Source: a virus. Taken from it: a stretch of DNA of 30,650 bases. How positions within the stretch are numbered: the first letter of the stretch is position 1; the number at the start of each line of letters is the position of its first letter. The notes under the pieces are model-generated. The model saw nothing but the letters and a program-made list of their open reading frames with translations. It searched no databases and was not told where the DNA came from. This document shows, in pieces, positions 4,001 to 27,263 of this stretch. The position numbers and the translations under genes were made by a program. The stretch lies in the IMG/VR virus record IMGVR_UViG_3300042860_001373, positions 1 to 30,650 of that record; one strand, given 5' to 3'.

Positions 4001-5292
4001 GCGACCCCTATTTCGCCCAGGACGACGAGTTCGGCCTCATCGGCGCCTGCCTGTCCGGTGGATCGGATGTCTGTCACGAGGTGTTCGCCAAGATCCCTAC
4101 CGATGCCATCCAGAACGACAGCCTGAGGCAGATCTACGAGGTGACCAAGGGCCTCGTTGCCAAGAGCGATCCGGTCAACATGGCCACCGTGGTCAAAGAG
4201 TGGAAGCGCTCCATGGGCCAGACCCCAGTGCCTTTCGAGGCTCTGAACAAGGCCGACGAGCTATGCCCAAGCCCAGCGAACTACCCGGCATTCGCTCAGG
4301 CCGTCCTAGAGGCCCACCACAGACGCCAGCTCAGAACCGCTGGAGACCGTCTGATTCGTGAATCCGCTGTATCCACCCTATCCGTCGATCAAATCGTCTC
4401 TAATGCCGAAGCAGGGCTCACGGTTGAGGCATCCAAGGAGGAAGTCCAATCGTCCAAGTCGGTTGTCAGTCGTTTCATTGACTCGACCCAGGAACGATTC
4501 TCAAGGCAGGGCCAGCTTTCTGGTATCACCTCGGGCTTCCACAGGCTCGACCAAATGACCGATGGTTTTCAGTTCGGCGAGCTGGCCATCATTGCGGCCA
4601 GGCCAAGCATCGGTAAGACAGCCATTGCCATTGCCATTGCCAAGGCAGCCAGCATCGACTCAAGGATCCCGACCCTGTTTATCAGCCTGGAGATGTCCGA
4701 CGAGTCCATCGTGCGCCGGATGGTCTCATCTGTTGGCAGCATACCCATGCAGGACATCAAGACCGGCCAGCTCGATCAGGGAGGCATGAAGGCCATGTCC
4801 ACAGCCTCGGCCAAGATCGCAGGCAGCCCGATTCATTTCATCTCAGGATCCGGTGTGTCCAACATTGCCACTATCACCGCGGTGATCCGCAGGGCTGTAC
4901 GCAAATGGGGCGTGAAGCTGGTCCTGGTGGATTACCTCCAGAAGATCCATGGATCCAAAGCCGCAGAGAAAAAGACCTACGAGATCGCAGAAGTATCTGG
5001 CAGGCTCAAGGGCGTGGCCTCCGATACGAAGACAGCCGTGGTCGCATTAGCACAGCTCAATCGAGAGAACGAGAAAGACAAAGGCCGGGTGCCTCGCCTG
5101 ACTGACCTAGCGGACTCTGGGCAGATTGAGAGGGACGCTGATCTAGTCCTATTGCTCAACAGGGAGCGCAACCAGCCCCAGGGCGAAGCTGTGATTGCTA
5201 TCGCCAAACAACGAGACGGTGAGTGCGGCCTAGTGCCCCTTTGGTACGACGGCCAATACTGCCGCTTCTCCGACCCATCTCCCAGTTTCTAA
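3997..5292 (+). CDS. dnaB: Replicative DNA helicase, DnaB family, 431 aa
   Basis: Residues about 8-105 match the DnaB N-terminal helical domain. A hinge leads to the RecA-like ATPase domain, starting around LSGITSGFHRLDQMTDGF. The Walker A motif ARPSIGKTA lies near residues 199-207. FISLEMSD follows as in DnaB, then VLVDYLQKI (Walker B region) and VVALAQLNRE. Length is close to bacterial DnaB (about 450-470). It unwinds the replication fork 5'-3' as a hexamer. It is translationally coupled to the initiator upstream. Without a primase in the window, it probably recruits host primase. Confidence 0.92.
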   Translation: MSDPYFAQDDEFGLIGACLSGGSDVCHEVFAKIPTDAIQNDSLRQIYEVTKGLVAKSDPVNMATVVKEWKRSMGQTPVPFEALNKADELCPSPANYPAFAQAVLEAHHRRQLRTAGDRLIRESAVSTLSVDQIVSNAEAGLTVEASKEEVQSSKSVVSRFIDSTQERFSRQGQLSGITSGFHRLDQMTDGFQFGELAIIAARPSIGKTAIAIAIAKAASIDSRIPTLFISLEMSDESIVRRMVSSVGSIPMQDIKTGQLDQGGMKAMSTASAKIAGSPIHFISGSGVSNIATITAVIRRAVRKWGVKLVLVDYLQKIHGSKAAEKKTYEIAEVSGRLKGVASDTKTAVVALAQLNRENEKDKGRVPRLTDLADSGQIERDADLVLLLNRERNQPQGEAVIAIAKQRDGECGLVPLWYDGQYCRFSDPSPSF

Positions 5293-6573: not shown

Positions 6574-7392
6574 ATGAGAATCCTGAACCTAGGCGGAGGA
6601 GTTCAATCCACAACGCTCTACCTCATGGCCATCAAAGGCGAGATTACTCCAATTGATTGTGCCATCTTCGCTGACCTTGGCGAGGAGCCAAAATCAGTCT
6701 ACGCCCACATGGAGTGGTTGAAGAGTCTAGATGGCCCAACCATCCATGTCGTTTCTGCGGGAATCCTTGGAGAGGATCTAAAGCATGGCATGAATTCAAC
6801 TGGCCAGCGCCACGCTACAATTCCAGCGTTTACCGCTCAGAACGAAGGTGAGCCGCTGGGGATAATGCGAAGACAATGCACCAGCGAATACAAAATAAAA
6901 CCAATCGAACGCTTCATTCGACGCAATCTTCTAGGGCTTGAAAAAGGGCAGCGCATCAAAACCAAGTTGACCCAGCTTTTCGGAATAAGCCTCGATGAAG
7001 CAGGCCGAGCAACTCGCATCAAATCCAATAGTCCACACTGGTCTGAGCCTGAGTTCCCGCTTTGCGACAAGATGATGACCAGAGCGGATTGCGTGAAGTG
7101 GTTGGATGCTTACGGAATACCTCACAAGGTTCCTCGCTCCGCCTGCGTATTTTGCCCATACAAGTCAGACTATGAATGGCTCAAGCTCAGGGAATCAGAT
7201 CCAGATGGGTGGGTTAGAGCTGTTGAAATCGACGATGCGCTCCGAATCGAAGGTATGGTCATGAACAGGGGCTGCAACGATAAGCTCTATCTTCACAAGT
7301 CTTGCAGACCTCTAAATGATGTTCACCTAACCGACAACGAGCGCGGCCAATCAGCATTCAACTTTGAATGTGAAGGAGGGTGCGGTCTGTGA
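6574..7392 (+). CDS. PAPS reductase-like PP-loop ATP-pyrophosphatase, cargo gene, 272 aa
   Basis: The N-terminus MRILNLGGGVQSTTLYLMA carries a PP-loop variant (GGGVQST) used by adenylating enzymes of the PAPS reductase superfamily. DCAIFADLGEEP follows, as in many phage members. Candidate metal or redox cysteines are in RRQCTSEYK, SACVFCPYKSDYEW and the C-terminal CEGGC. Related enzymes work in sulfur transfer, phosphorothioation and base modification. The substrate here is unknown. G+C is lower than in the terminase genes (27 of 60 bases in the line at 6601). A 16-bp direct repeat borders it. It therefore looks like a moron inserted between the terminase genes, with a possible role in genome modification or anti-defence. 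Confidence 0.75.
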   Translation: MRILNLGGGVQSTTLYLMAIKGEITPIDCAIFADLGEEPKSVYAHMEWLKSLDGPTIHVVSAGILGEDLKHGMNSTGQRHATIPAFTAQNEGEPLGIMRRQCTSEYKIKPIERFIRRNLLGLEKGQRIKTKLTQLFGISLDEAGRATRIKSNSPHWSEPEFPLCDKMMTRADCVKWLDAYGIPHKVPRSACVFCPYKSDYEWLKLRESDPDGWVRAVEIDDALRIEGMVMNRGCNDKLYLHKSCRPLNDVHLTDNERGQSAFNFECEGGCGL

Positions 7393-25428: not shown

Positions 25429-25761
25429 ATGACCACTCTCTCCAACCTCATCAGCGCCCTGATCATCGTGGAGTCCTCCGGGAACGATCAGGCCATCGGC
25501 GACAACGGACGCGCCCTAGGGCCCCTGCAGATCCACCGCGGGGTGGTGCAGGACGTGAACCGGATTACCGGGAGCAACTACCGATGGGAATCAATGACCA
25601 ACCGAGCGCAGGCACGGGCAGTGTGCGAGGCCTACCTGCAACACTACGGCCGCGGCAAGACCACCGAGCAGCAGGCCCGGATCTGGAACGGAGGTCCCAC
25701 CGGTGACCGGAAGCCTGTGACACTTGCCTACTGGCGCCGCGTGCAGAAGGCGATTAAATGA
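25429..25761 (+). CDS. Small lysozyme / lytic transglycosylase-like endolysin, 110 aa
   Basis: The first 40 residues give the classic active-site pattern of SLT and goose-type lysozymes: ALIIVESSGND with candidate catalytic E15, then GDNGRALGPLQIHRG. The C-terminal part contains YLQHYGRGKTTEQQARIWNGG, which fits the same fold. It is short for a transglycosylase and has no signal peptide or binding domain, so it would need a holin to leave the cytoplasm. Candidate holins lie at 15523-15881. The ATG is 17 bases after the GGGGGCGCG leader. Confidence 0.75.
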   Translation: MTTLSNLISALIIVESSGNDQAIGDNGRALGPLQIHRGVVQDVNRITGSNYRWESMTNRAQARAVCEAYLQHYGRGKTTEQQARIWNGGPTGDRKPVTLAYWRRVQKAIK

Positions 25762-25876
25762 TTTTCTCACGGCACGGCTCGGCCCGGTAGGGCGCGGTAC
25801 GGCTTGGCCCGGCGGGGCAAGGCACGGCAGGGCTAGGCAAAACGCCTACCGGTGGGCGGTATCACCGGACACTTTC
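25761..25876 (+). repeat. GGCNN array plus hairpin, unit 1
   Basis: After the lysozyme stop comes ATTTTCTCAC, then fourteen pentamers GGCNN (two read GGTNN) from 25771 to 25840 in exact 5-base register. A hairpin follows: CCGGTG (25849-25854), loop GGCGGTAT, CACCGG (25863-25868). An ACACTTTC box ends the unit. GG every five bases also fits a two-tier G-quadruplex pattern (GG with three-base loops). Confidence 0.85.
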
Positions 25877-25911
25877 GTCAGTAACAACCAAGGCAACCAA
25901 AGCAAAACAAC

Positions 25912-26487
25912 ATGAAGCAAATCAAAGTCAAACTCACCGGGCTGCGGCCCCTCATCATGCACAACGGCGACATGGTGGATCACAAGAACCCATACGTCAT
26001 GGCGATCAAACGCATCACAGCCAAAGGAAGCAAAAACATGACTCCAAGCGATCACGACGAGCGCGACCGTCTGGAGTGGGAGGCCGGCCTTTACTGGTCC
26101 GAGGCTGAAGGCGGTCTGGTGCTGCCGTGCGACAACATCGAGAAATGTCTCAAGGACGGCGCCAAGAAGGCTCGCCTTGGTAAGAAGTTCGACGCCGCCG
26201 TCCTTTTGTCTGAGGCCGAGGCTGTGATTCATCACAGGAGAATCGGCCAGACCAAAGAGCAGATCTACTCCGACCCAGCCTTTACACTCCGGAAGCGAGT
26301 TGACCTCGGGATCATTCGAGTCAGGCCCATGGTTCCTTCTGGCTGGTGGACGACCTGCACCATTGAGTTCGATGAATCGGTTGTCTCGAAGGAGCAAGTG
26401 ATCGACGCAACACGCGAGGCTGGCGGATTGGTCGGCCTGGGCGACTGGCGACCGAAGTTCGGCCGGTTCACCGTCGAGGTGGTTTGA
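25912..26487 (+). CDS. RAMP-like glycine-loop protein of unknown function, 191 aa
   Basis: The N-terminus (MKQIKVKLTGLRPLIMHNGD) is a beta-strand plus a helix starting region. The C-terminal GLVGLGDWRPKFGRFTVEVV has a glycine-rich loop like that of ferredoxin-fold RAMP RNA-binding proteins. I believe similar sequences (GIGDWRP, GRF) are widespread phage proteins without assigned function. Residues 34-60 are charged. It is flanked by four GGCNN/hairpin units, one upstream and three downstream, suggesting it binds or depends on them. The leader AACCAAAGCAAAACA is shared with 25125. Catalytic residues are not evident. The RAMP assignment is an inference. Confidence 0.55.
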   Translation: MKQIKVKLTGLRPLIMHNGDMVDHKNPYVMAIKRITAKGSKNMTPSDHDERDRLEWEAGLYWSEAEGGLVLPCDNIEKCLKDGAKKARLGKKFDAAVLLSEAEAVIHHRRIGQTKEQIYSDPAFTLRKRVDLGIIRVRPMVPSGWWTTCTIEFDESVVSKEQVIDATREAGGLVGLGDWRPKFGRFTVEVV

Positions 26488-26571
26488 ATTTCTCGAGGTT
26501 GGGCACGGCAAGCCGGGGCATGGCCTGGCGAGGCGTGGCATAGCAACACGCGACCCGGCGCGGTATCCGGG
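26488..26571 (+). repeat. GGCNN array plus hairpin, unit 2
   Basis: Begins AATTTCTC directly after the stop codon. About ten pentamers follow in 5-base register from 26497 to 26544, mostly GGCNN with one GCC and a last AGC. The hairpin is CCCGG (26554-26558), loop CGCGGTAT, CCGGG (26567-26571). The loop again contains CGGTA. Confidence 0.85.
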
Positions 26572-26665
26572 ACAATTTCTCGCGGCGTGTCCAGGCATGG
26601 GCATCGGCCGGGCTGGGCCGGGCACGGCTCGGCAGGGCAATACGTCACTGGGTACGGTAACCCAG
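26572..26665 (+). repeat. GGCNN array plus hairpin, unit 3
   Basis: Opens with ACAATTTCTC. GGC recurs at 26584, 26594, 26600, then every five bases from 26606 to 26636. The early part has slipped register by one base twice. The hairpin is CTGGG (26648-26652), loop TACGGTAA, CCCAG (26661-26665). One further T-A pair can close the loop. Confidence 0.85.
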
Positions 26666-26777
26666 ACAATTTTCTCAAGGCGTGGCATGGCCCGGTCCGG
26701 CTGGGCAAGGCTTGGTGCGGCGGGGCTAGGCGGGGCGCGGCAACAACGCTTTCCGGTGTGCGGTAACACCGGGCAAC
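26666..26777 (+). repeat. GGCNN array plus hairpin, unit 4
   Basis: Opens with ACAATTTTCTC. Thirteen pentamers (eleven GGC, two GGT) run in exact register from 26679 to 26741. The hairpin is CCGGTG (26753-26758), loop TGCGGTAA, CACCGG (26767-26772). GCAACTTTC follows, ten bases before the next gene's ATG. Confidence 0.85.
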
Positions 26778-26786
26778 TTTCAGCAA

Positions 26787-27263
26787 ATGGAAACACAAGA
26801 CATGATCAACGAAGAAGAAGTCCGGCGCCTTCCGCTCTGGAAGGACTGGATCGACCGCAACGAGCACCGGCTGGCCTACGGCCTGACCGTGACCATCGAG
26901 GAGATGGAGACAGCCCTGGAGGAGAAGGCCAACTCCATGGCCTTCCAGATGGCTGTGCACAACATCCGGGTGCTGCTGCGGCAGCGTGGCATGAACTTCA
27001 GCCAGCGGGGCCTCCGCGGGGCCGGCTTCCAGATCCTGCCGCCCAACACCAACGCCGACGAAATGGAGCACCTGAACCGGGTGGCCTTGAACAGCCTCAA
27101 GGCCTCGGTGATTCTGGGCACCAAGACTAATCTCAACCTACTCTCCGACTGCGAGCGCAAACGGCACGAGGCGGTCACCGAGAAGATGGCGCACAGGCTG
27201 GCCCTCCTGGGACGGTCGAACGCTGGCCTCGGCCAGGAGATCGCAAAGCAGATTACCCAATGA
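26787..27263 (+). CDS. Hypothetical helical protein, 158 aa
   Basis: Not recognised. A largely helical chain (VTIEEMETALEEKANSMAF, then LNRVALNSLKASVILG) with a short charged start. It is downstream of the third GGCNN/hairpin unit in a row, with no Shine-Dalgarno motif (TTTCAGCAAATGG). It overlaps the next small gene as ATGA and so begins the continuous chain of coupled genes that runs to the end. A recombination or DNA-binding role is possible because a RuvC-like gene is close. Confidence 0.55.
   Translation: METQDMINEEEVRRLPLWKDWIDRNEHRLAYGLTVTIEEMETALEEKANSMAFQMAVHNIRVLLRQRGMNFSQRGLRGAGFQILPPNTNADEMEHLNRVALNSLKASVILGTKTNLNLLSDCERKRHEAVTEKMAHRLALLGRSNAGLGQEIAKQITQ

Follow-up and report, generated by a model that had tools for sequence, protein, structure and literature searches.

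A probable VIPR locus with four arrays of GGY/NN pentamers in an uncultivated tailed phage

The stretch of viral DNA analyzed here (the window, 30,650 nucleotides; IMG/VR record IMGVR_UViG_3300042860_001373, positions 1 to 30,650) contains four arrays of GGCNN pentamers on its plus strand, in a strict five-base register, which raises the question of what kind of element keeps one triplet fixed while the next two bases change. The original prediction, made from the letters alone, proposed two-tier G-quadruplexes, or the alignment of GGC on one helical face, and knew of no named element with this pattern. This last point is out of date, given that exactly this pattern is found in the vrRNAs of VIPR, a CRISPR-like weapon of phages against rival phages, which was described in 2026 (PMC13142463). 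According to this preprint, the vrRNAs consist of 9-16 YNNGG repeats and a conserved tail, Vipr is a RAMP protein of about 20 kDa, and in the phage SUSP1 a single vrRNA precedes the protein genes and three follow them. The locus in the window, carried by an uncultivated tailed phage, is almost certainly VIPR, most similar to the type II system of SUSP1, with the arrays representing four vrRNAs. VIPR is already known, and the window contains another member of this system, not a new element.

The phage setting, which had been predicted, was confirmed by the presence of genes for terminase, portal, tape measure, DnaB, and a replication initiator in the window, and the matches of the terminase in the Verrucomicrobiota are only 29-39% identical. 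A phosphoadenosine phosphosulfate reductase-like gene (6574-7392) is located between the genes of the small and large terminase subunits.

Arrays, tails, and neighboring genes

The strict register, with GGC fixed and NN variable, was borne out by the array scan, in which the (GGCNN)x5 pattern occurs 9 times in the window, against 0 expected from 100 dinucleotide shuffles, so that the arrays are far beyond chance; no GGCNN array was found on the minus strand of the window. The predicted counts of 14, about 10, about 9, and 13 units stood for array 1 (14 units, 25771-25840) and array 4 (13 units, 26679-26743), both in exact register, and for array 2, where the strict scan gives 8 good units out of 9 (26497-26541), and 10-11 are reached when the degenerate units flanking the strict part on both sides are counted. 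Array 3 has 7 perfect units (26606-26640), with a slipped part 5' of these. In this 5' part of vrRNA3 (26581-26605), the register slips (GGCATGGGCATCGGC), and the guide may be decayed or shortened, judging by these slips. A search for CRISPR-type direct repeats with unique spacers in 25700-26850 found no such repeat family, and the Rfam search returned no family at the gathering score.

The arrays do not lie in one non-coding stretch (25761-26777), as had been assumed, because a gene of 191 amino acids separates array 1 from arrays 2-4 (Table 1). Its product matches the solved chain of the PDB entry 36pp (“SUSP1 Vipr protein”) at an E-value of 4.4e-26 along its whole length, over 190 residues, and is 32% identical to the SUSP1 Vipr. 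The AF2 model of this protein has a pLDDT of 90, and its best structural matches are RAMP subunits of the Csm3/Cas7 type (Z about 10.7), while the glycine-rich loop at the C-terminus is nearly invariant among the relatives. This gene is vipr, and encodes a RAMP protein. The iterated profile of the 158-amino acid product encoded downstream from the arrays converges on the SUSP1 vap1 (8.6e-24), and the vap1 homologue adjoins vipr in 59 loci, always on the same strand. No Cas family was recovered by Pfam and PHROGs in the flanking genes searched, or by PADLOC in Vipr and the vap gene.

Table 1. Features of the probable VIPR locus in the window.
Feature	Position	Strand	Description
vrRNA1 guide array	25768-25840	+	14 GGY units; upstream of vipr, as in SUSP1
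vrRNA1 NN order			AC AC TC CC AG GC AC TT CC GG AA AC AG TA; AA next to the tail
vrRNA1 3' tail, class A	25841-25871	+	Tail comparison, covariation
vrRNA1 tail pseudoknot	CGC (25843-25845)/GCG (25856-25858)	+	Predicted
vrRNA1 tail hairpin	25849-25855/25862-25868	+	Predicted
vipr gene	25912-26487	+	191-aa RAMP protein, phrog_4652, C-terminal G-loop GLGDWRPKFGRF
vrRNA2 guide array	26494-26546	+	About 10-11 units, two degenerate (GCC, AGC)
vrRNA2 3' tail, class B	26547-26574	+	Tail comparison
vrRNA3 guide array	26581-26640	+	7 perfect units; slips in 5' part
vrRNA3 3' tail, class C	26641-26668	+	Tail comparison
vrRNA4 guide array	26676-26743	+	13 GGY units; NN run common to L250, L265, L270
vrRNA4 NN order			AA GT AT CC CC TG AA TT GC GG TA GG GC; AA next to the tail
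vrRNA4 3' tail, class D	26745-26775	+	Tail comparison
vap1 homologue	26787-27263	+	158 aa; predicted DNA-binding accessory protein; iterated profile search

A hairpin with a CGGTA loop is found 3' of all four arrays, as predicted, followed by ACAATTTTCTC or a similar linker, and the tail classes (A-D in the window) go with the position in the locus. The hairpin, for which a covariation check had been proposed, does covary in the related sequences: it forms in all 17 distinct tails, and its loop is able to pair with a 5' CGN in 17 of the 17, with none broken, through CGC with GCG in nine tails and CGT with ACG in eight. The tail is thus predicted, through this covariation, to be a clade-specific structure formed by a hairpin and a pseudoknot.

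Tails of a different, tRNA-like type are found 3' of the arrays at L009:3712, at 4314 and 4486 in L026 (minus strand), and at L111:1400, 1539, and 1673. A T-arm (GGTTCGAnTCC or GGTTCGACCCC) is present in these tails, enclosed by an acceptor-like stem in L009 and L026, and only one of them, in L111, is called as a whole tRNA; they may be vrRNA ends generated by enzymes of tRNA processing.

Distribution, guide variation, and alternative readings

At least 120 stretches were recovered when viral contigs were scanned for (GGCNN)7, with the DNA pattern as the sole criterion, and relatives of Vipr were sought in these with an iterated profile started from the 191-amino acid protein of the window and the SUSP1 Vipr. 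A relative is encoded in 83 of the 120 viral stretches listed, with 365 of the 375 arrays on the vipr strand, a median of 350 bases away, in comparison with only one of 32 viral stretches that were not picked for arrays, and two of 120 bacterial stretches picked by (GGCNN)8. Close relatives of the Vipr of the window are present in 39 further viral loci. In L014 (6310-7000), arrays of 57 and 82 units lie back to back, far above the described 9-16, and may be staggered, overlapping vrRNAs. GGY/NN arrays are also found in L133, a contig of a Chthoniobacterales genome (3300-3420), in which no relative of the Vipr of the window was found.

The recurrence of GG every five bases across 60-70 bases could be taken to indicate two-tier G-quadruplexes, or some other DNA structure acting in cis, for example, on transcription or replication. 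A quadruplex needs GG only, yet the third base is also held, as a pyrimidine (3989 GGC and 369 GGT versus 56 GGA and 11 GGG in the arrays of the listed viral stretches, where all 16 dinucleotides are represented at NN). The arrays also co-occur with a RAMP gene and follow its strand, and each of them ends in a specific covarying tail, neither of which is required by a quadruplex, and this reading is, therefore, very unlikely. The proposed position of GGC on one helical face accounts for neither the tail nor the link with the RAMP protein.

The VIPR reading is consistent with the way in which the arrays vary among related phages, where the register and GGC are kept, in contrast with the random register and loss of GGC by which the original prediction could have failed. 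In eleven loci with Vipr sequences that are 94-100% identical, in which the arrays were compared in register from the tail, identity is 0.80-0.96 at GG, 0.70-0.92 at Y, and 0.86-1.0 in the tails, versus 0.24-0.36 at NN, where 0.25 is expected by chance. The NN positions are hypervariable, while GG and the tails are held. A degenerate pentanucleotide microsatellite without function, as some bare-pattern bacterial matches in G+C-rich actinobacteria without Vipr might suggest, is extremely improbable, given that slippage would make NN alike in these near-identical loci, and that arrays are present also in phage DNA of 39% G+C.

Some NN runs are shared between guides. Among 82 distinct guides, in-phase NN runs of at least five are common to 28 guide pairs, versus none after shuffling, while single-base runs are not clearly in excess in either of the other phases. 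One sharing group includes class D, B, and E tails, with the guides covering shifted segments of a single composite sequence. The vrRNA4 of the window, in turn, shares an NN run with a class D guide of L250, and this run is found also in class A guides of L265 and L270, where the Vipr is 72% identical and the set of GGY variants differs. This in-phase sharing is consistent with guides that recognize one protein-coding target and skip its wobble bases, as reported for SUSP1 in the preprint (PMC13142463), and part of it could be due to copied cassettes.

It is possible, and proposed here tentatively, that in this clade the tails specific to each position stay fixed while the guide parts between them are exchanged as cassettes, and that vrRNAs belonging to separate cassettes (tail classes B, D, and E, or A and D) converge on identical target sites in a common codon phase. 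Downstream of vipr in four loci (L262, L266, L272, and L287), an 18-unit guide with a class D tail has been retained with a few NN changes, unlike the fast turnover of the guides elsewhere.

The sharing of NN runs also bears on the reading of the arrays as mRNA sites for a TRAP-like ring protein, which would attenuate the neighboring genes in cis, with NN as a mere spacer. TRAP binds (G/U)AGNN sites, in which the triplets are two bases apart, and reads the triplets while ignoring the spacers. The triplets of the window have the same five-base spacing in RNA, and the arrays adjoin genes on the same strand. The adjacent protein is unrelated to TRAP, however, being a RAMP protein that matches the SUSP1 Vipr, and a mere spacer would not be expected to show NN runs in common, far more often than by chance, among guides from different cassettes, which leaves this reading highly doubtful.

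Search for targets

Targets were sought under the one-base skip rule. No match was obtained in IMG/VR for the exact 9-NN pattern of guide 1, 4, or 2, while the 8-NN patterns had 5, 14, and 13 matches, respectively, and most of the matches of guides 1 and 4 end at the core when extended. The best candidate for guide 4, six contigs with 10 consecutive NN in one family of phage proteins of 160-190 amino acids, is not claimed as a target, as it represents about two independent variants, with a chance of approximately 4% by a rough estimate. A 9-NN pattern of guide 2 that includes the neighboring TG had no match either. Against 1.58 Mb of viral DNA, the guides of the window, together with those of 31 related loci, performed no better than shuffled guides, and guides 1 and 4 had no match, at up to three mismatches, in 388 Verrucomicrobiota genomes and the contigs of 26 relatives. 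No target of vrRNA1, 2, or 4 was established in the viral contigs and the relatives' contigs, which does not weigh heavily against targeting, because the collections lack most of the phages of this host.

Known systems and the proposed mechanism

The locus shares with the SUSP1 VIPR (KT454805) the RAMP protein, the GGY/NN vrRNAs, a structured tail, and the vap1 homologue, as well as the arrangement, in which vipr is preceded by one array and followed by three. Arrays 1 and 4 (13-14 units) and array 2 (about 10-11) fall within the 9-16 repeats of VIPR, while array 3 has 7 perfect units. The tails differ in both sequence and geometry, with the pseudoknot partner located 5' of the hairpin in the window, whereas a downstream UGAGAC appears, from a reading of the sequence, to be able to pair with the loop in SUSP1. 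The dominant triplet is GGC in the window and GGT in SUSP1, and the vap gene follows vrRNA2-4 in the window, but comes directly after vipr in SUSP1. In relation to the main text of the VIPR preprint (PMC13142463), this clade, the covarying tail, the vap gene located after the arrays, and the in-phase sharing of guides across cassettes are new.

Vipr resembles the class 1 CRISPR-Cas effectors (Csm3/Cas7) in its RAMP fold and C-terminal glycine-rich loop, and the two systems also have in common the repeated subunits on a guide RNA. Unlike class 1 CRISPR-Cas, no Cas operon was seen among the genes searched, and there is no repeat-spacer array, while the VIPR guide is interrupted every five bases, and sequence identity with Csm3/Cas7 is only ~10-15%.

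By analogy with the experiments on SUSP1, four vrRNAs of roughly 75-105 nt would be transcribed from the plus strand, each formed by a GGY/NN pentamer array with a pseudoknotted tail on its 3' side. Copies of Vipr would align on the GGY motifs of the vrRNA to assemble a ribonucleoprotein, which would be capped by the tail, and NN would base-pair to double-stranded DNA, where one target base would be skipped per unit. This binding would repress the transcription of the genes of competing phages or satellites, presumably assisted by the Vap1 homologue.

The window thus provides a complete VIPR locus, in all probability, in an uncultivated phage that is far from the phages of E. coli. About 30 loci have a related Vipr and different guides, and can be used for the study of the targets, the gain of guides, and the tail structure that Vipr needs. 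If the tentative proposal of cassette turnover and convergence is true, recombination or repeated selection would renew the guide repertoire in the absence of a Cas1-like acquisition enzyme.
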